A model generated the notes under the pieces. That model ran no database searches. It saw only the letters and a list, made by a program, of their open reading frames with translations, and was not told the DNA's origin. 32,267 nt of DNA. Source: a virus. The stretch is taken from IMG/VR virus record IMGVR_UViG_3300025154_000295, positions 1 through 32,267 of that record; one strand, 5' to 3'. The stretch's first letter is position 1, and the number at the start of each line of letters is the position of its first letter. Of the stretch, positions 5,072-21,800 are shown piece by piece. Made by a program: the position numbers and the translations under genes.

Positions 5072-5269
5072 AATGCTCCCCGTATCTGCCTTTTTCATCG
5101 AGTTTTGAAATTCTGAAATAGTTCTTTCAATGGCTTTTCTGCCTATTTCAGTTGCCGTCAAGCCAGTGGTGGCTGCGATTCTGTCTATTTCTTCCCTTTG
5201 CTCTATTGGTATACGAAGGAAAAGAGTTCCCCATTTTTCACGATATTTCTGCGCTATTCTTTTTGTCAT
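5066..5269 (-). CDS. Ribbon-helix-helix repressor, 67 aa (RHH1)
   Basis: ACAGGAGGAAATAAA precedes the ATG at 5269; the longer in-frame extension lacks a good site. The ribbon WGTLFLRIPIEQREEIDRIA, a turn (ATTGLTA) and helix 2 TEIGRKAIERTISEFQ match the Arc/CopG/ParD DNA-binding fold. The extra basic N-terminus (MTKRIAQKYREK) is common in phage members. Its promoter carries a perfect 14-bp palindrome and tandem GCTAGCC half-sites, so it should repress itself and, through GGCTAGCC at 4999, the following operon. It lies at the divergence point of early (minus) and late (plus) genes, where a lysogeny or early-late switch regulator would be expected. Confidence 0.8.
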   Translation of the reverse strand: MTKRIAQKYREKWGTLFLRIPIEQREEIDRIAATTGLTATEIGRKAIERTISEFQNSMKKADTGSIG

Positions 5270-5303
5270 TTTATTTCCTCCTGTCTTGTGATTTCTATGT
5301 AGT

Positions 5304-5335
5304 ATTATAGCACATGTGCTAGCCAGTGGCAAGCC
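5304..5335 (-). promoter_or_regulatory. Consensus promoter and operators of RHH1
   Basis: Minus strand TTGCCA (5332-5327) and a perfect TATAAT (5309-5304) with a 17-bp spacer. The spacer contains the perfect palindrome TAGCACATGTGCTA (5308-5321). Direct repeats GCTAGCC and GCAAGCC (5318-5324, 5329-5335) are 11 bp apart, one helical turn, as expected for side-by-side RHH dimers. Confidence 0.85.
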
Positions 5336-5528
5336 AGCTACAGAGAGCAAAGAAAAAACATATCTATAGAAGAAACACGCAAAATAGCCGGAAACGTGCT
5401 TGTAGTGACCATACGCAAATTGGAGGTACAAACATACCTGTAATGTGTTTTGTGTCGCTCTGTGGTCGCTGTGGCGAAGCTGTTTTTGTTGTGGAGGGAA
5501 GGAAGCATGAGAAAACGGAAAGTTTTGC

Positions 5529-5557
5529 TTGTTATCCGACTTTAACCGTGATAGAAT
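5529..5557 (+). promoter_or_regulatory. Rightward promoter for the packaging module
   Basis: TTGTTA (5529-5534) and TAGAAT (5552-5557) with a 17-bp spacer on the plus strand. It is the only good plus-strand promoter between the divergent RHH1 promoter and the first rightward gene at 5754. Confidence 0.6.
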
Positions 5558-5753
5558 GGTAGTGTGGGGTTTTTATACCTGCTTATTTTTTTTGTGTCTG
5601 TCTACTGTTTTCGGTTGGCGAATACTGTTTATGGGAGCATCCGAGAGGGTGCTTTTATGTTTTGTTTTTATGTATGTAGTATTGATTTCTACCTGCCAAA
5701 TATGGCAGGTGCTAAAATGGTGTCTAGCCTTACTCCCATAAGGGTTTGCTGGT
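5558..5753 (+). other. Structured untranslated leader
   Basis: About 190 nt between the rightward promoter and the gene at 5754. It is T-rich, with a terminator-like hairpin at 5636-5656 and a second hairpin CCTGCC-AAATAT-GGCAGG at 5692-5709. Two hydrophobic overlapping frames read through it (from 5529 and 5564), but neither has a convincing ribosome-binding site. A 39-aa Cys-containing frame at 5443-5562 just upstream is also weakly supported. I treat the segment as an attenuating leader. Confidence 0.4.
5636..5660 (+). terminator. Attenuator-like intrinsic terminator in the leader
   Basis: AGCATCC-GAGA-GGGTGCT (7 bp, one G-U) followed by TTTTATGTTTTG. It lies about 80 nt after the rightward promoter and before the first gene, so read-through rather than initiation may set expression of the module. 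Confidence 0.6.
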
Positions 5754-6392
5754 TTGGCTCGTGAAAAGCAGTATATATATCAGAAAGTGAGTTGTTTTTG
5801 CTTGATTAAAAGATGTTTAATTTTGGACGATGATTTCGGATATGGCAGGACAAGGCGACAAGTTATAGATCCGGAAACCGGCGAAATGCTGGCCGAAGTT
5901 TGGCATAACAAACCTGAGCAGGGTATATTTCCAATTGGAGTCAGCGCGACAGTAGCGCAAACCATTTTTACTAGGGAAGAATCGCCGGACAAGCAGTCGG
6001 AACATATCAGCATCCGCGACAAGGATATAGAACATAGTTATTATGAGTTCTGGAATACGAAAAAAGGACTAAAACCGCCCAAAAAGCGCAGTACAGGGAA
6101 TAAAAAAGGTTACGTGAAGCTGTATAATGAAAAATTGGTGGAACTGAGCGCAAAACTGAGCGATGCAGACATGGGGTTTTTGGTGAAGTTGTCGCCGCTG
6201 ATTGACTGGGACAGTGGAGCATTGACGGACAAGCGGAAAAAGGAAAAGCTGAGCGCAGACGATTTGATTCGTGTGCTGAAAATGCCGGAACGCAACTTCT
6301 ATAGAAGAATGTCAGCACTCACGGGTGCAGGTGTAGCGTATCGGAAGGACGATTGTTATTATATTAATCGTTCGTATATGGCTAAAGGATAG
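5754..6392 (+). CDS. RepL/MarR-like winged-helix phage regulator, 212 aa
   Basis: The C-terminal 95 residues fit the winged-helix pattern of RepL-type and phage regulatory proteins: YNEKLVELSAKLSDADMGFL, then LSPLIDWDSGALTDK, then recognition helix region LSADDLIRVLKMPERNFYRRM, and the typical end YYINRSYMAKG. The N-terminal 110 residues (with DPETGEMLAEVWHNK) are less conserved and may bind a partner. The TTG start at 5754 is weakly supported by AAGGG about 9 nt upstream; an internal TTG is possible. As the first rightward gene, it could control late transcription or replication initiation. Winged-helix DNA binding is fairly sure; the biological role is inference. Confidence 0.6.
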   Translation: MAREKQYIYQKVSCFCLIKRCLILDDDFGYGRTRRQVIDPETGEMLAEVWHNKPEQGIFPIGVSATVAQTIFTREESPDKQSEHISIRDKDIEHSYYEFWNTKKGLKPPKKRSTGNKKGYVKLYNEKLVELSAKLSDADMGFLVKLSPLIDWDSGALTDKRKKEKLSADDLIRVLKMPERNFYRRMSALTGAGVAYRKDDCYYINRSYMAKG

Positions 6393-6444
6393 TAGTTTAT
6401 TGTATCTTACATAGGAATATCTAAGAAAATGAGGTGAAATGATT

Positions 6445-6906
6445 ATGGCAGAGTTTATTGACGAAAGGCATCCGGGAGGACGACCGCTGAAGTTTACGAG
6501 CGTCGAAGAACTTCAGAAAAGAATTGATGAATACTTTGAGTATTGTGATAGTAGAGTAATAAACCAAGTCACGAAGCAAGGTGATGTTGTACCTGTCAAA
6601 ATGCCTAGACCTTATACATTATCAGGATTAGCTTGTTATCTGGATTGTGATAGAAAAACGTTGTTTAACTACTCAAAAGATGACCAGTTTTTCCCCGTTC
6701 TTATGCGTGCGCGAAGAAGATGTGAGAACTTTGCCGAAGAACAGCTCTATGAGGGCAACGATAGAGGCGCGAAATTCTGTCTATTGAACGGTTACGGCTG
6801 GTCCGACACTCAAAAGCTAGAGCTGACGGGCGCTGACGGTGGTCCCGTGGACGTGCGAATAGCTGGTATGAGCGACGAGGAGCTAGAGCAGTTGTTGGAG
6901 GATTAG
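6445..6906 (+). CDS. terS: Terminase small subunit, 153 aa
   Basis: Recognises viral DNA and loads the large terminase for head filling. The protein opens with HPGGRPLKFTSVEELQKRIDEY and continues with an HTH-like segment PYTLSGLACYLDCDRKTLFNY, both typical of the phage small-terminase family that includes P22 gp3-like proteins. The C-terminal part (GAKFCLLNGYGWSDTQKLEL and the acidic tail MSDEELEQLLED) is the usual oligomerisation and TerL-contact tail. The ATG at 6445 is 8 nt from GAGGTG and is preferred over the ATG at 6439. The order terS, small genes, terL, portal is that of P22-like and related podoviruses. Confidence 0.85.
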   Translation: MAEFIDERHPGGRPLKFTSVEELQKRIDEYFEYCDSRVINQVTKQGDVVPVKMPRPYTLSGLACYLDCDRKTLFNYSKDDQFFPVLMRARRRCENFAEEQLYEGNDRGAKFCLLNGYGWSDTQKLELTGADGGPVDVRIAGMSDEELEQLLED

Positions 6907-8462: not shown

Positions 8463-8786
8463 ATGAATTTTCCCAATGAATTAAAAAGTTGTAGTAACAT
8501 GCCGATGAATGAACCTGCATGCTCTATGGAGTTAACCCCACTAGAAAGCATAATGGGGGCAATAACCCAATCTGTGCATGAAAACAGCAATGCCATTTCT
8601 TTGCTTGAAGGAATTGTGCGGAAACCATATCCTGTTTCTTGCGAAGGTAAAGGTTCAACAAATAACGATGTTACGCTGTATGAAAAATTATATACTTTAG
8701 CAGGAATTATAGTAGACAACAATAAGGCATTATATGACTTATGCGACATACTTAAAAACGAAATCGGCGAATTTAAAATAATCTAG
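8463..8786 (+). CDS. Hypothetical protein, 107 aa
   Basis: An in-frame TTG exists at 8445, but GGAAG lies 7 nt before the ATG at 8463, which gives MNFPNELKSCSN. The central and C-terminal parts are helical (SIMGAITQSVHENSNAISLL and TLYEKLYTLAGIIVDNNKAL), with amphipathic pattern typical of small oligomerising phage proteins. It directly precedes terL, so a packaging accessory role is possible. No family recognised. Confidence 0.6.
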   Translation: MNFPNELKSCSNMPMNEPACSMELTPLESIMGAITQSVHENSNAISLLEGIVRKPYPVSCEGKGSTNNDVTLYEKLYTLAGIIVDNNKALYDLCDILKNEIGEFKII

Positions 8787-8804
8787 TCACAGTAAGGTGA
8801 TCTT

Positions 8805-10595
8805 ATGACCGAACAGCAGGAAAAGAAAAAACTATCCACTCAGAAGTTAAGGGAAAAAGCGGCAGCAAAAGTTGAGTTAGAATATCGTAAATCCTCTAAG
8901 AGTGTAGAGTATTTCATAGATAAGTACGCCTACATTGAGGATAGAGACGTTCAAGACTTAGTTGCCAAACTCAACCTATGGGACGGTCAGAAGGAAGCGT
9001 TAAGGAAGATTATTGACAGTAAGTTATCAATTATACTTAAAGCGCGGCAGTTAGGTTTTACTTGGTTATCTCTTATTTACGGATTGCACGGGGTTATATT
9101 TCGACCTGGATATTCTGTTGTTGCTCTGTCTAAAAGGGAAGAGGATGCTAAGGAACTTGTCAGGCGTATTTGCTTTATTCTGAGGTATCTACCTTCATGG
9201 ATGATTCGTCACGTTAAGGGTACTCCGAAGCAATATCCTAACCCTACGTGGGATTCAACGGTATTGTCGGTTACTATCTACCATAAAGGCAAGGAACCTG
9301 CTGTTTTTAACGCTATGTCTGCCGGTCCTGACAGTGGACGCTCTTTCACAGCTAACCTTGTAATACTTGACGAATGGGCGTTTCAGATGTTCGCTAGAGA
9401 TATTTGGTCTGCTGCTTATCCGACTATTAACCGTCCTACTGGTGGACAGGTTATTGGGTTATCTACCGCTAAAAAAGGTACCTTATTTGAGGAAATATTT
9501 TGGAAGGCGTACAACGGTGAGAATACGTTTACGCCTATATTTATGCCTTGGAGTACCGACCCTAGACGTACCCAGGAGTGGTATGAGCAGGTCAAAAAAG
9601 ACTTACCTCATAGTTATATGGCAGAGTATCCAGCAACTCCGGAAGAGGCGTTTACTGCCGGTGAAGGGCAGTTCTTTAAAGAGTTTCGTCGTGATGTGCA
9701 TGTCGTTAAACCTTTTAAGATACCGTCCTGGTGGAAAAGGTTCTGCTCGTTGGACTATGGACTTGATATGTGTTCATGTCACTGGTGGGCAGTATCGCCC
9801 GAAGGCATTATGTGCGCTTATCGTGAGTTATATCAACCCAACTTAACCCTTAGTCAAGCGGCGAAAAAGATTATCTCCATGACACCCAAAGACGAGAAAA
9901 TTAGCTATACGGTTGCTTCTCCTGACTTGTGGAATAGACGACAAGAGACAGGGACAAGCGGTAGGGAGATAATGAATCGTGCTGGACTTAATAATCTGAG
10001 AAAAGCAAAGCATGACCGTGTTGCAGGTTGGAGGGCATTAAGGGAATATCTATTGGTTAGAGAGGAAAAGCAGGACGTTATTACTGATGAAGGTATTGAT
10101 GCGGTTACTGTACTTACTTCTAAACTGAAGATATTTGAGGAATGTAAGAATCTTATACGGTGTTTACCACTACTTGAACATGATAAGAATGACTCCGAGG
10201 ATGCGGCAGATACTCCACACGAGGTCACACACGCGCCGGAGGCATGTTTGATTGGACAAACAATAATAAATACTCCTAATGGCGACTTTCCTATTAAGGA
10301 TTTAGTCGGTAAATTAGGTTGTATATATTGTTATGACGAAGAAAACAAGTGCATGTCAGTATCTACTTTTTCTGATGTTAGGTTAACAAGAGAGAATGTG
10401 GATGTGTATGAAATAGAACTATGTGACGGAAGAAATATTGTTGCAACTAAAGATCATCCTGTACTTACTAATAGCGGATGGAAATTAGTTGAGCAACTTA
10501 CTGACAATGATTTTATTATCGACGTATCATTAGAGGTGAATCATGCAAATAGTAACAGAAACAAAAACAATAACAACACAATACATAATCTTTAA
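8805..10595 (+). CDS. terL: Terminase large subunit N-part (480 aa) fused to split-intein N-domain (116 aa)
   Basis: ATP-driven DNA-packaging motor and nuclease. Residues 79-87 (KARQLGFTW) form the adenine/Walker A-like element, 185-190 (LVILDE) Walker B, 218-225 (GLSTAKKG) the coupling motif, and D317 (SLDYGLD) the first nuclease Asp. At residue 481 (10245) the terminase sequence PHEVTHAPEA stops and an intein begins: block A CLIGQTIINTPNG with Cys1, then block B NIVATKDHPVLTNSGW with the TxxH residues. The intein has no C-terminal blocks in this frame. It ends in a 17-residue Asn-rich tail that overlaps the HNH gene and stops at TAA. The N-domain is about 98 residues and net acidic (about -9). 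Its partner is the ORF at 11215. TerL is therefore split at the conserved nuclease-region motif. Confidence 0.92.
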   Translation: MTEQQEKKKLSTQKLREKAAAKVELEYRKSSKSVEYFIDKYAYIEDRDVQDLVAKLNLWDGQKEALRKIIDSKLSIILKARQLGFTWLSLIYGLHGVIFRPGYSVVALSKREEDAKELVRRICFILRYLPSWMIRHVKGTPKQYPNPTWDSTVLSVTIYHKGKEPAVFNAMSAGPDSGRSFTANLVILDEWAFQMFARDIWSAAYPTINRPTGGQVIGLSTAKKGTLFEEIFWKAYNGENTFTPIFMPWSTDPRRTQEWYEQVKKDLPHSYMAEYPATPEEAFTAGEGQFFKEFRRDVHVVKPFKIPSWWKRFCSLDYGLDMCSCHWWAVSPEGIMCAYRELYQPNLTLSQAAKKIISMTPKDEKISYTVASPDLWNRRQETGTSGREIMNRAGLNNLRKAKHDRVAGWRALREYLLVREEKQDVITDEGIDAVTVLTSKLKIFEECKNLIRCLPLLEHDKNDSEDAADTPHEVTHAPEACLIGQTIINTPNGDFPIKDLVGKLGCIYCYDEENKCMSVSTFSDVRLTRENVDVYEIELCDGRNIVATKDHPVLTNSGWKLVEQLTDNDFIIDVSLEVNHANSNRNKNNNNTIHNL

Positions 10596-10986
10596 CGGAG
10601 TTAAGTTTTATAAAGACGGTAAAGGTTATTGGTTAGCAACTATAGATAAAAAACCCAAAAGACTGCATGTTTATGTATGGGAATGTAGTAACGGAAAAGT
10701 GCCGAAAGGTTATCATGTCCACCATGTCGATTTAGACAAGGATAATAACTATATTGATAATCTGGTTGCGATGAAAAAAGAAGATCATCTAAAACTACAT
10801 GCACTACTCAGCAATATTGACGGAGAATGTTTGGAAAGGAAAAGGAAGAATTTAGACAAATACAGACACCTTGCTACTGAGTGGCATCATACGGATGAAG
10901 CAAGAGAGGTGTCGAGAAAGAATTGGCACAAATCTCTTGGTTTATACATGGACCAGATGATAGTCCTCAAGTGTGACCTATGCTGA
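10543..10986 (+). CDS. HNH homing endonuclease lodged between the intein halves, 147 aa
   Basis: GAGGTGAATC precedes the ATG at 10543. Stops lie directly upstream in this frame, so it is a separate gene and not fused to the intein N-domain. The core KGYHVHHVDLDKDNNYIDNL plus a following DHLKLH has the His residues and Asn of HNH_3-type homing nucleases. The start overlaps the intein N-domain by 53 nt. The reading frame ends at TGA just after KCDLC, where homologous endonucleases continue with a glycine and a zinc finger. The rest is found in the same frame (11008-11211). The nuclease core is intact, so cleavage could be retained. The normal role would be to cut an uninterrupted terL allele and drive homing of the split gene. 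Confidence 0.8.
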   Translation: MQIVTETKTITTQYIIFNGVKFYKDGKGYWLATIDKKPKRLHVYVWECSNGKVPKGYHVHHVDLDKDNNYIDNLVAMKKEDHLKLHALLSNIDGECLERKRKNLDKYRHLATEWHHTDEAREVSRKNWHKSLGLYMDQMIVLKCDLC

Positions 10987-11211
10987 AAGCAATATGAGAC
11001 AAGCATAATGATGAGAGATCATAGTAGGTTTTGCTCTAATAAGTGCAAGTCTGCATACAGGAGAAGTATAGGTGTGGACGATATTGAGAGGGTATGTATT
11101 GTTTGCGAAAAAATATTCCCAATAAATAAATATTCTAAAACAAAGACATGCTCAAGGAAGTGTAGTGCAAAATTAATGCTCCTTAAACGAAATGGTATAA
11201 GGAGGTTTTAG
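10987..11211 (+). pseudogene. C-terminal zinc-finger remainder of the HNH endonuclease after an in-frame TGA
   Basis: In the same frame as the HNH gene: KQYETSIMMRDHSRFCSNKC, then CIVCEKIFP and TCSRKCSAK. These are two treble-clef-like fingers (C-x2-C ... F-C-S-x-K-C). The finger's first Cys pair (CDLC) lies before TGA 10984-10986, so one finger is cut in two. GGA to TGA would restore CDLCGKQYE, the usual form. A separate start at ATGATG (11008) lacks a ribosome-binding site. It ends in TAG, whose upstream codons form the AAGGAGG site for the next ORF. Confidence 0.6.
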
Positions 11212-11214
11212 TTT

Positions 11215-11478
11215 GTGGTACAGGTTAAATCGGTAAAATATGTTGGTAAGTCAGATGTGTTTAATATGGAAGTTGAAAAACATCATAACTTTAGCGTTAA
11301 CGGTGGACTTATTGTCCATAATTGTCGCTACGCCGTAATGTCAAGACCTCCCATTTCTAAAGATGATAAGTATTCGTTCCCCGATGATATGTCACTATCT
11401 GAGCAGTCAGCAGTTTTAAGCAACATTGCGTTTGAGAAAGAATATGAGAAGTTGCAGGAACATATTGTAGGTTTTTAA
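11215..11478 (+). CDS. terL: Split-intein C-domain (36 aa) fused to terminase large subunit C-part (51 aa)
   Basis: AAGGAGG (11197-11203) lies 11 nt before GTG 11215 and overlaps the stop of the previous frame, giving independent translation. The first 36 residues, with block F DVFNMEVEKHHNFSVNGG and block G LIVHN, are the same length as natural split-intein C-domains such as DnaE. Asn36 is the last intein residue and Cys+1 (11323) starts the C-extein CRYAVMSRPPISKDD, which continues the conserved TerL motif interrupted upstream. The C-domain is slightly basic, complementing the acidic N-domain. Trans-splicing would yield a 531-residue terminase, a normal family length. Without splicing the nuclease motif would be broken. 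Confidence 0.9.
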   Translation: MVQVKSVKYVGKSDVFNMEVEKHHNFSVNGGLIVHNCRYAVMSRPPISKDDKYSFPDDMSLSEQSAVLSNIAFEKEYEKLQEHIVGF

Positions 11479-14077: not shown

Positions 14078-14112
14078 TAACTAAATAACCAATCCTTAGT
14101 AGGAAAACCACA

Positions 14113-14170
14113 GGGATAGTGTATGAGACAATGCGACTAAGCACTCTCTCATACACTATCCCTATTTTTA
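14113..14170 (+). terminator. Strong intrinsic terminator after the packaging/portal unit
   Basis: A perfect 16-bp stem, GGGATAGTGTATGAGA with its complement, 18-nt loop, then TATTTTTATT. It ends the portal-side transcription unit before the scaffold and capsid genes. Confidence 0.92.
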
Positions 14171-19007: not shown

Positions 19008-19277
19008 ATGCGATACACCAAAAAACCGGAAAATTTCACCGATACAGAGAGGTTGCTTTTAGGCATATTGGAGGAATTGCAGAAAATATCCTCACTTTTA
19101 CATACACCAAAAGTAGTTGAAACGCCCAAGAAAGATGTTGGGCGTACTGTATCGGTGAAGAAAACTAAGGAAATAAAGAAATATTCATGCAAAAAGTGCG
19201 GCAGGGAGTTTGGTAATGCCCGTGTCCGCACTAACCACGAAAAGAACTGCAAGGGTGGTGTTAAAGATAGCAACTAA
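19008..19277 (+). CDS. C2H2-like zinc-finger protein, 89 aa
   Basis: GAGGTGCTTT then ATG at 19008. The N-terminus has a helix (DTERLLLGILEELQKISSLL), the middle is Lys/Val-rich, and the end YSCKKCGREFGNARVRTNHE followed by KNC is a classic C-x2-C...H-x4-C finger. C2H2-like fingers of this type occur in small phage and Bacillota DNA-binding proteins. The last 62 nt overlap the start of the next gene in another frame, so one of the two starts may be wrong. Confidence 0.65.
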   Translation: MRYTKKPENFTDTERLLLGILEELQKISSLLHTPKVVETPKKDVGRTVSVKKTKEIKKYSCKKCGREFGNARVRTNHEKNCKGGVKDSN

Positions 19278-20625
19278 TATTCAAGGTAAAAATCCTGTCG
19301 GAACAACGGCAGCTAATACTAACCCCGTCACCATTGGCGGCGTTGATGGTGACAATGATATAGTTGGTCTAGTTCTAAATTCAGACGGTTCAATAACGGC
19401 AAAATTGGGTGCAGGTACGTCGATAGTAGGTAAGTTTATTCCTGTAGATGCGGACGGTGACGAGAAGTTTACCGCTACTAATCCAGCAATAGTCGATAGC
19501 AACTTTGACGGTGGCATAGCGACTGGTGGCAGTAAAACTACCATTATTGACACATCTAAAAACTTTGAGACTAATATGTTTGCCGGGCATACGGCAAAAG
19601 TCACCATTAGTGGTGTTGACTATTACCGCACAGTAGCGAGTAATACAGCAACAACTTTGACTATTACTGCTCTACCTGGCGCGGCGGCAAGTGCTATTGT
19701 TGGTACTCCTGGAACAGCAGAAGTAACGGTAGTTTATGTAAATGAGGGAGTTGCAGGTAACTCGATAACTGCTGAAGTAGTGGCAGCACCAGGGGACAAT
19801 GATAACTTGTCGGCATCTTTCACTGATAATGTTTTGACGGTTTATCTCGGCAAAACTGGTGGCGTATTAGACGATGCCAAAAATACCGCGACTCTTGTTG
19901 CTTCTAAGATTGATGAACTAGCAGAATTTACGGCAACCATGACTGGTTCTGGTGGGGTTGTGCCTGTAGCGTCAGCAGTTACGTTTACTGGCGGTATTGC
20001 TGTTGTAAGCGTTGCCGCAGGTTCAGATTACCAGATTATGCGGAAAAATGTTGTTGCAGATGGCGGTGGTTCGATAACTGTCGATCAGTCTACGCACGAT
20101 AATTTTAACGCCAATGTTAATTTACAGGTGGGCAATACTGACGTTGCAACTGGCAACCCTGTGCCTACCGTACTAGCTGGTAGTATAATTACAAATGGGC
20201 TACAAACTAGAGAAAGTTGGATTCCTGTTGCCATTATTGATGAAAGTGTGGGTATATCAAAAATTTTCACTGTGCCTACTAATACCGAGTATGAAATTCT
20301 CTCTATTACAGTTTTATTTGTAGCAAGTGCAGTTGCAGGGAACAGAGGTATTCGTATTTTAATGTCAACTGGTACAACAGGACAAAATTATGCACGACAC
20401 ACTACAGGGGTTAATATTACTGCTGGTCAGACTAGACAGATAACATTTGCTCCAAACTTATTGAAAGAGACAACTACTGACTTGACAGGTACACAATTGT
20501 CAGCCCCAATTGCTAGATGTATTATACCAGCTGGTCATAAGATTAGTATTTCTGATTTAGCTTCAATCGATGCTGTTGGGGATTCGATGAAAATATATAT
20601 GTTAATTAGACAAAGGACGGTGTAA
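19216..20625 (+). CDS. Probable head or neck fibre protein, 469 aa
   Basis: GGGAG lies 7 nt before ATG 19216 (a TTG at 19210 is less good; GTG at 19258 is possible and would shorten the overlap). Low-complexity Thr/Gly/Val/Ala sequence with repeated beta motifs (TVVYVNEGVAGNSITAEVVA, ATMTGSGGVVPVASAVTFTG), then a C-terminal domain EYEILSITVLFVASAVAGNR ... HKISISDLASIDAVGDSMKI, which looks like a compact beta-sandwich tip. These features suit a fibrous virion protein. The biological target is unknown. Confidence 0.5.
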   Translation: MPVSALTTKRTARVVLKIATNIQGKNPVGTTAANTNPVTIGGVDGDNDIVGLVLNSDGSITAKLGAGTSIVGKFIPVDADGDEKFTATNPAIVDSNFDGGIATGGSKTTIIDTSKNFETNMFAGHTAKVTISGVDYYRTVASNTATTLTITALPGAAASAIVGTPGTAEVTVVYVNEGVAGNSITAEVVAAPGDNDNLSASFTDNVLTVYLGKTGGVLDDAKNTATLVASKIDELAEFTATMTGSGGVVPVASAVTFTGGIAVVSVAAGSDYQIMRKNVVADGGGSITVDQSTHDNFNANVNLQVGNTDVATGNPVPTVLAGSIITNGLQTRESWIPVAIIDESVGISKIFTVPTNTEYEILSITVLFVASAVAGNRGIRILMSTGTTGQNYARHTTGVNITAGQTRQITFAPNLLKETTTDLTGTQLSAPIARCIIPAGHKISISDLASIDAVGDSMKIYMLIRQRTV

Positions 20626-20628
20626 AGT

Positions 20629-20826
20629 ATGAACTATAAAATTATTCAAGTTTTTACAGACGACCGTTTGAGTATTAACGATGAGGTAATTGGTAAACAA
20701 AAAGTTGCTTATATTGAGGTTAACGGTTCTATTCATGTGGTGCGTTATGATTATGAAATTGGTACACCAGAGGATGAAGTTAACACTGCACTAAATAAAA
20801 AGATAGATGACGTATCTACCTTGTAA
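20629..20826 (+). CDS. Hypothetical protein, 65 aa
   Basis: AGGACGGTGTAAAGT precedes ATG 20629, a near copy of the leader at 8036. Product MNYKIIQVFTDDRLSINDEV then KVAYIEVNGSIHVVRYDYEI; short beta-rich protein. It ends directly before the integrase promoter. Function unknown. Confidence 0.5.
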   Translation: MNYKIIQVFTDDRLSINDEVIGKQKVAYIEVNGSIHVVRYDYEIGTPEDEVNTALNKKIDDVSTL

Positions 20827-20870
20827 TACTAACGAAGGTGCGAATTTTAGATAGTTAGTTATTTAGTTAG

Positions 20871-20899
20871 TTGAGCTAAGACTCGATATATGGTATAAT
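20871..20899 (+). promoter_or_regulatory. Integrase promoter
   Basis: TTGAGC (20871-20876), 17 bp, perfect TATAAT (20894-20899). Upstream is a tandem TAGTTAGTT/TTAGTTAGTT repeat (20853-20873) that could be a regulator or recombinase arm site. Confidence 0.75.
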
Positions 20900-20938
20900 T
20901 AATGACAAATAATCATAAAGGTGGTTTTTGTCATTAAT
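20898..20938 (+). promoter_or_regulatory. 12-bp inverted repeat enclosing the integrase ribosome-binding site
   Basis: ATTAATGACAAA (20898-20909) and TTTGTCATTAAT (20927-20938) are perfect inverted copies. The loop contains AAAGGTGG, and the GTG (20921) and ATT (20933) candidate starts lie in the loop and 3' arm. As RNA, the hairpin would constrain initiation. As DNA, it lies at the transcription start and could be an operator. Confidence 0.75.
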
Positions 20939-21769
20939 GTACTCGAATCTTGGCCTAGATATGAGAGAGATAAGAAATTTCTCAATTATTCACCTCACAC
21001 ACTAAAGTCATATAAGATACAGTGTCGCCTACTCCATGAATTCATAGGCGATATGGATATGGGTGAAGTAACATATGAGCAATTAAAGGATTATTTTGCC
21101 GAGCAGGGACATTTGAAACCTGCAAGCATCGGTCATAGGGTAAGATTTGTTCAGTCTTTATTTAGATGGGCTATTGATGAAGGATATATTCCAAAAAACC
21201 CTGCCACTAAATTGCGCGAACCTAAAATTGGCTTACGGGTTCCTAAGTTTCTGAGCGAAGAAGATATGGAAGCATTGCGCGAGTCATGCAGATGCCCAAA
21301 AGAACACGCCATTGTAGAATTTATGTATACTACCGGATGCAGGATAGGTGAGGTTTCCTTGGTTGATAAGAAAGATATTAATTGGGGCAATAAATCAGTT
21401 ATTGTGATGGGTAAGGGCGACAAAGAAAGAGAAGTTTATTTTAATTCAAAATGCTTCTTCTGGCTTAAAAAATACGTCGAATCAAGAAAAGACAATGATC
21501 CTGCCCTATTTGTTACTGACCGCGCACCAAGGCGTATGAGTATAGCACGTATGAGAGAAATAATTAAAGCGGTTGCTGTTCGTGCGGACATTGAAGCAAG
21601 TGTCTATCCCCACAGATTAAGACATTCTTATGCCACTCATTTATTGGACAATGGTGCTCCTATGGAAGCAATACAGCAACTCATGGGACACGCCAAGCAG
21701 GAAACGACCCAACTATATGCCCGTTTAAGCGGCGAGCGCAGAAAAGAATTATATAAGAGGTATTTTTAG
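20921..21769 (+). CDS. int: Tyrosine integrase, 282 aa
   Basis: XerC/D-size site-specific recombinase that would insert the phage genome into the host chromosome. N-terminal SAM-like core-binding domain (HTLKSYKIQCRLLHEFIG), then the catalytic domain with R141 (TGCRIGEV), K165 (GKGDKER), H231-x-x-R234 (HRLRHSYATH), H257 (GHAKQ) and Y266 (TTQLYARL), all in the expected order. The start is uncertain: GTG 20921, or ATT 20933, which is better spaced from AAAGGTGG. It has its own promoter and terminator, and lies unusually among structural genes rather than beside a repressor or excisionase. No att core could be identified without the host sequence. Confidence 0.9.
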   Translation: MVFVINVLESWPRYERDKKFLNYSPHTLKSYKIQCRLLHEFIGDMDMGEVTYEQLKDYFAEQGHLKPASIGHRVRFVQSLFRWAIDEGYIPKNPATKLREPKIGLRVPKFLSEEDMEALRESCRCPKEHAIVEFMYTTGCRIGEVSLVDKKDINWGNKSVIVMGKGDKEREVYFNSKCFFWLKKYVESRKDNDPALFVTDRAPRRMSIARMREIIKAVAVRADIEASVYPHRLRHSYATHLLDNGAPMEAIQQLMGHAKQETTQLYARLSGERRKELYKRYF

Positions 21770-21773
21770 CACA

Positions 21774-21800
21774 GGGAGGTTAACCGCCTCCCATTTTACA
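21774..21800 (+). terminator. Integrase terminator
   Basis: GGGAGG-(TTAACCG)-CCTCCC followed by ATTTTAC. It closes the integrase unit before the head-tail adaptor. Confidence 0.7.

Follow-up and report, generated by a model that had tools for sequence, protein, structure and literature searches.

The question raised by this locus is why a gene for a tyrosine recombinase should lie among the structural genes of a phage, with its ribosome-binding site enclosed by a perfect inverted repeat. The DNA is that of virus record IMGVR_UViG_3300025154_000295, all 32,267 bp of which are referred to here as the window, and its recombinase locus was compared with about 40 relatives, designated below by L numbers. 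As an earlier note on this DNA had described, the enzyme is encoded between fibre-like genes and an adaptor: upstream are an adhesin-like gene and a 65-aa ORF, and the downstream gene has a weak match to the SU10 adaptor. The locus is organized as follows.

19210..20625, + strand: adhesin/head-fibre-like gene; exact start uncertain
20173..20184, + strand: left site CTAGCTGGTAGT, degenerate; in-frame Leu-Ala-Gly-Ser
20629..20826, + strand: small 65-aa ORF closing the adhesin cassette; equivalents in relatives
20829..20846, + strand: right site CTAACGAAGGTGCGAATT, putative recombinase core site, 2 nt past the stop codon
20850..20873, + strand: TAGTTAGTTATTTAGTTAGTTG repeats, resembling the TAGTT half-site; similar in L004 and L024
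20871..20899, + strand: sigma-70-like promoter TTGAGC-17-TATAAT with TG extension; the -10 element overlaps the hairpin 5' arm
20898..20909, + strand: hairpin 5' arm ATTAATGACAAA
20917..20924, + strand: ribosome-binding site AAAGGTGG
20927..20938, + strand: hairpin 3' arm TTTGTCATTAAT, holding ATT 20933-20935
20921..21769, + strand: tyrosine recombinase ORF, 282 aa from GTG or 278 aa from ATT
21774..21792, + strand: hairpin GGGAGG..CCTCCC, leader/terminator of the downstream adaptor gene

The enzyme and its neighbours

The gene upstream of the recombinase presumably encodes an adhesin; it has a constant N-terminal part that extends to about 20172, followed by a variable C-terminal part, and searches of Pfam and PHROG returned no match to it. 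The small ORF behind it, present at the equivalent position in L004, L018, L043, L085, and L091, may specify a chaperone. The TAGTTAGTTATTTAGTTAGTTG repeats, proposed earlier as arm sites, are possible accessory binding sites. Reverse-transcriptase genes of the diversity-generating-retroelement type occur upstream of the recombinase in L087 (1451-2569), where the gene adjoins the adhesin, and in L098 (about 5238-6446). Elsewhere in the window, an intein-like insert that includes an HNH endonuclease and extends across several ORFs appears to interrupt the terminase gene (8805-11478).

The recombinase ORF matches PF00589 (E 9.5e-34), includes a core-binding SAM-like domain, and is also assigned to phrog_1, and Pfam and PHROG searches found no arm-binding domain. 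The residues R141, K165, H231, R234, H257, and Y266, corresponding to the R-K-H-R-H-Y set of tyrosine recombinases, are invariant in eight relatives. The protein therefore has the domains and residues of an armless tyrosine recombinase, and it would be expected to be catalytically competent.

A second tyrosine integrase is encoded elsewhere in the L004 and L037 phages, and a serine integrase in the TPELB_ph1 and L005 phages; because these four relatives carry a separate enzyme, the window recombinase probably does not serve as the lysogeny integrase. No match to PF00589 was obtained in window-family contigs of 40-72 kb, which may be incomplete, nor any to PF07508 in those that were searched for that family. 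No second integrase was found in the window record, nor was an att core in a host.

Sites and breakpoints at the ends of the adhesin cassette

Across loci, the right site conforms to the consensus CTAACG-N5/6-CG, often followed by NTAGTT, and it is composed of imperfect inverted half-sites around a spacer of 5-6 bp. Inverted half-sites around a short spacer are the usual form of a tyrosine-recombinase core. The site lies between -4 and +13 nt from the stop codon in 14 of the 14 loci with a readable upstream ORF, a count outside which L100 fell on account of its short contig. The same or a similar site ends the adhesin cassette in phages lacking the recombinase (L021-L024, L043, and L045), and it is found upstream of related recombinases in Desulfotomaculum, Halobacillus, and Paenibacillus, with 0 occurrences of a reversed control pattern. 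That the enzyme acts on the CTAACG site is suggested by this association.

Every phage record has a single right site and therefore holds no store of alternative cassettes; no inverted long repeats were found in the window. Two successive variant right sites (CACACGGATGT) are present in L090 at about 4337 and 4660, suggesting two cassettes in a row. Inverted spare fibre parts were encountered in two distant relatives alone, L005 and L006, as fibre shufflons, in which inverted spare C-terminal parts are arranged around a related recombinase (L005 8816-11547; L006 8866-11469) and the repeat core is close to GAATTAAGTAGCAA.

Pattern searches of viral contigs with 17 bases of the site led back to the L004 record, already known and here labelled L009, and to a single chance match within a coding region; about 20 chance matches of a 15-base pattern lay inside genes and were discarded. 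A genome scan with an alignment of eight proteins located 69 loci, and one with a two-protein alignment none. Neither blastn of the region against phage records nor tblastn of the capsid protein gave a match.

In relatives, the left site takes the in-frame form CTAAC[G/T]GGNAGT, which encodes LTGS (Leu-Thr-Gly = CTA-ACn-GGn), and Leu-Thr-Gly-Ser or a variant of it closes the constant part of the adhesins that adjoin the sites. Its leucine is specified by CTA in 13 of 14 loci, compared to a background of 8-15%; the corresponding P of about 6e-12 is only indicative, because the motif search helped to pick the loci and some left sites were found by motif once the pattern was known. The left site of the window is degenerate (CTAGCTGG) and that of L002 differs (CTCTCTGG), so that the window's own cassette may be fixed.

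Breakpoints were defined as the ends of pairwise blastn homology relative to the sites. At the left site, homology ends at +12, -5, +18, +8, +10, +11, +20, and +5 bp (for example, +12/+12 for window-L043, -5/-5 for window-L024, and +8 to +20 among L018 and L021-L023); at the right site it starts at -1, -1, -7, -2, -3, and 0 bp (-1/-1 for window-L004, L021-L022, and L021-L045, and 0/0 for L002-L091). L043 is a chimera, with an N-terminal part of the window type joined to a cassette that from +1 bp matches L018 and L025, and the cassettes of L021, L022, and L023 are unrelated, the remainder being 85-97% alike. Mosaic breakpoints at the sites were seen between phages and none within one phage, where no instance of recombination was detected either.

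The inverted repeat and translation of the recombinase

The arms at 20898-20909 and 20927-20938 pair in 12 of 12 positions, with 17 nt between them, and they enclose AAAGGTGG and GTG 20921, with ATT 20933-20935 in the 3' arm, as had been reported. The repeat is real, beyond chance: counting perfect repeats of 12 bp or more whose loop does not exceed 30 nt, the 32-kb window has just two, and one in total arose when the whole window was dinucleotide-shuffled 20 times. A perfect 22-bp inverted repeat with an 8-nt loop lies between the portal and scaffold-like genes (14112-14163).

The earlier note had given the unit its own promoter and its own terminator, of which the first is retained. The promoter, TTGAGC-17-TATAAT with a TG extension, scores 10/12, a type of match that is common in shuffles (8 found, mean 6.0), and its extended -10 match is kept in L004. 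The GGGAGG..CCTCCC hairpin is equally real; however, it stands at the same place in the integrase-less L018, L021, L023, L024, and L025, and it therefore belongs to the downstream adaptor gene. Translation from AUU at 20933 is favoured, which makes the earlier suggestion of an ATT start credible, because this codon aligns with the ATG start of the L002 enzyme (66% identical) and is retained in L004; it lies eight bases downstream of the ribosome site. GTG 20921 is in frame and a possible start, but it falls inside the ribosome site, and a second good site is lacking upstream.

A simple model would suggest that the repeat controls translation of mRNA reading through from upstream genes. Folding z-scores for the read-through RNA are -3.1, -3.0, and -3.2 in the window, L004, and L002, respectively, compared to -0.7, -0.5, and +0.3 for RNA from the own promoter. 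As an energy measure, the cost of opening the ribosome docking site was computed, with 134 genes as controls (mean 8.3 kcal/mol, 95% below 14.6 kcal/mol). For the read-through RNA this cost amounts to 23.8 kcal/mol in the window, 19.1 in L004, 17.0 in L002, 24.9 in L091, and 25.1 in L007, and to 14.9-23.7 kcal/mol in eight Paenibacillus loci. From the own start, all transcription starts being predictions, it is 8.8 kcal/mol in the window, 9.4 in L004, 3.8 in L002, and 8.4 in L091; the own mRNA needs only about 9 kcal/mol because its promoter starts within the 5' arm. By computation, the hairpin is confined to the read-through mRNA and covers the start region. The two window transcripts are separated by the opening energy of the whole docking site and not by the mean probability that the ribosome site by itself is unpaired; the ribosome octamer is partly in the loop, and control would therefore operate mainly via the start codon and the stem.

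The architecture recurs with different sequences. L002 and L091 are quite different from the window in sequence, yet their -10 element lies in the 5' arm and the 3' arm adjoins the start; between these two, one pair has changed on both sides (U-A to C-G) and further pairs are held by wobble. The L004 hairpin departs from that of the window by a single change, G-C to G-U. A third hairpin, AAAACCTCCCATTAG/CTAATGGGAGGTTTT, is seen in the Paenibacillus copies, with 99% of cells paired, an invariant ribosome site, and an opposite 5' arm that varies only from C to U; covariation statistics for this stem are not decisive, because every paired change is on one side. Strong start-region hairpins are also found on the distant enzymes of L007 (9775-9830, z -7.8, on a recombinase adjoining a fibre) and TPELB_ph1 (z -3.8), the latter with an opening cost of 12.9 kcal/mol, inside the control range.

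In most relatives that lack the hairpin, a divergent repressor gene takes its place. With such a gene, opening costs are ordinary in L085, L037, L087, and L090 (4.9-8.9 kcal/mol) and intermediate in L089 (14.2 kcal/mol); in L086, no hairpin is clear and no repressor was recognised. The earlier note had looked to conservation of the repeat in homologous phages as the test of its proposal, and a partial answer is that L002 and L091 conserve the structure of the repeat but not its sequence, and that the hairpin-less relatives mostly pair the enzyme with a repressor. Its proposal that the hairpin holds integrase synthesis low is supported, by these computations, as translation control of the read-through mRNA, and most likely the inverted repeat acts as an RNA lock that keeps the recombinase off during late read-through.

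The same note had also considered that a recombinase or a repressor might bind the repeat as its site, which was not supported. As a recombination core, its 17-nt gap exceeds the spacers of tyrosine recombinases and its sequence is not retained in L002, L091, and Paenibacillus; the likely recombination site is CTAACGAAGGTGCGAA at 20829. A DNA operator for autoregulation would account for the overlap with the -10 element, a common operator position, and several relatives do possess divergent repressors with palindromic operators. It is nevertheless a distinctly unlikely reading of the repeat. No repressor gene adjoins the window unit, and L002, L091, and Paenibacillus keep the RNA pairing through G-U wobbles, which, together with the unrelated hairpin sequences of relatives, break the DNA symmetry and so argue against a DNA site.

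Mobility of the unit and competing explanations

The window and L004 share DNA only from 20828 to 21770, at 90-93% identity and excluding a replaced middle portion of the L004 gene. The shared block begins at ACTAACGAAGGTGCGAA, immediately past the stop codon of an upstream gene that differs, and L004 is a siphovirus-like phage with structural genes different from those of the window. The recombinase gene of L004 is broken, its middle (8769-9165) having been replaced by some 400 bp of unrelated DNA that contains repeats and resembles an insertion sequence.

In Paenibacillus chromosomes, recombinase units occur on their own and the site is present in many scattered copies, numbering 13, 10, and 9 in three genomes (reversed control, 0); genome G022 has 13 sites and six recombinase copies. 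Some chromosomal units have a CTAACGGGCAG-like core as their right end, 37-378 nt after the gene, CTAACGGGCAG being the core of the left site as well. Dispersed elements of ~95 bp in Paenibacillus G017-G025 (e.g., L175, L176, and L189) have the form CTAACGN5CGNTAGTTCAAT - terminator-like hairpin - (C)TAACGGGCAG; they are non-coding, share both ends with the recombinase units, and have the look of MITE-type derivatives that arose from a tyrosine-recombinase element. It is plausible that phages adopted the enzyme and the ends of such a mobile element.

Taken together, the sequence comparisons are probably best explained by a recombinase of an adhesin-cassette exchange system that is RNA-locked in the late operon. 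The adhesin would consist of a constant N-terminal part and a swappable C-terminal part with the small ORF, the swappable segment being bounded by two direct core sites, the in-frame CTAACnGGn and the CTAACG-N5/6-CG at the cassette stop codon. The recombinase, encoded just past the second site, would recombine both, and cassettes would be swapped between co-infecting or resident phages. Because the gene lies inside the late operon, it would be locked by a hairpin that forms only upon read-through and buries the ribosome site and start codon. The own-promoter mRNA, starting in the 5' arm, would be unable to form the long hairpin and would allow low, regulated synthesis, probably from AUU. More tentatively, and with somewhat less than even confidence, the system may be a dedicated one for adhesin-tip exchange, common to podovirus-like and siphovirus-like Bacillota phages and descended from chromosomal recombinase elements, a family that would still have autonomous and MITE-like copies in Paenibacillus.

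Several alternatives have to be weighed against the exchange system. The unit might be a selfish element that moves only itself, CTAACG targets lying behind adhesin genes by chance, as the stand-alone copies in Paenibacillus and Bacillus chromosomes, the CTAACGGGCAG-like right-end core of some of them, the scattered non-coding elements with the same ends, and the transfer of the unit between unrelated phages might indicate. Such an explanation is unlikely, because in phages the two sites flank the adhesin cassette rather than the recombinase, no clear right-end core lies within 350 nt downstream of the gene in any of the phage copies checked, and phages without the recombinase still have the right site where the cassette ends.

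Phage module boundaries are often at short conserved linkers, and homologous recombination there could generate sharp boundaries; CTAACG would then be a relic or a linker and the recombinase incidental, in agreement with the occurrence of the same boundaries in phages without it. This is very unlikely given that only about 8-15 bp are common to unrelated phages, that the right site has the half-sites and spacer used by tyrosine recombinases, that synonymous codons are constrained at the left site, and that in distant Bacillota, too, the recombinase is found with these sites. An ordinary lysogeny integrase, misplaced by mosaic evolution and with its attP at 20829, is highly improbable: four relatives have a second, canonical integrase, window-family phages are without any in the contigs searched, the site marks adhesin-cassette ends even where the recombinase gene is absent, and adhesin and adaptor flank the locus, although the enzyme belongs to integrase families (PF00589 and phrog_1), the site adjoins a gene as attP often does, and no other integrase was seen in the window record.

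Few parts of phages change as fast as the receptor-binding tips, whose sharing by unrelated phages is usually ascribed to chance recombination. If the exchange system exists, site-specific recombination would allow unrelated phages to pass receptor-binding cassettes to one another; through the dedicated recombinase and the common in-frame site, tip exchange would become predictable, and cassette ends could be recognized in the sequence. More generally, the conserved RNA lock suggests a rule for late-operon enzymes, which would be guarded by either a read-through hairpin or a private repressor.

A literature search covering open-licence papers returned no description of the CTAACG-N5/6-CG site or of the adhesin-exchange system proposed here, and the closest systems resemble the present one in part. 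Gin, Cin, and Min are serine recombinases. In R64 Rci, Mu/P1 Gin/Cin, and p15B Min, as proposed here, site-specific recombination gives an adhesin or tail fibre a different C-terminal part, but these systems invert DNA at inverted sites, and the sites are unrelated (PMC6109161). Integrons likewise have a tyrosine recombinase beside exchangeable cassettes ended by a recombination site, and the dispersed gene-plus-site arrangements in Paenibacillus are reminiscent of them; here, in contrast, the cassette is fused in-frame to a constant N-terminal part, and phages have no array. Sites compared by eye did not match the attC core RYYYAAC/GTTRRRY, which argues against membership.

With respect to the hairpin, the ribosome sites of IS10, IS50, and T4 early/late genes are hidden by an inverted repeat in read-through mRNA and not in own-promoter mRNA. 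ISPpu9 is a related case (PMC8450116). The inverted repeat studied here would similarly hide a ribosome site only in read-through mRNA; in contrast to IS10/IS50 and T4, it would guard a phage recombinase in a late operon, and the sequences are unrelated.

The nearest parallel is Rin/rix of Bifidobacterium prophages, in which an armless XerD-like tyrosine recombinase, distinct from the lysogeny integrase, is encoded beside a receptor-binding-protein gene, one site lies between the constant N-terminal and variable C-terminal parts, a second, directly oriented, follows the 3' end, and inverted spare cassettes are present (PMC6109161). The domains of the window enzyme place an armless tyrosine recombinase next to a presumed receptor-binding gene, relatives combine an in-gene site with a directly oriented 3' site (the left one being degenerate in the window), and rix TTCCCTAACCC has CTAAC in common with the present site (PMC6109161). 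The differences are that one cassette is found here and inverted spares are absent, that the site is CTAACG-N5/6-CG, that exchange apparently occurs between phages rather than by inversion, that site and enzyme are common to unrelated phage types, and that control is by hairpin or repressor. With the first three features matched and the spares missing, the window system would therefore work like Rin without being a member of its family.
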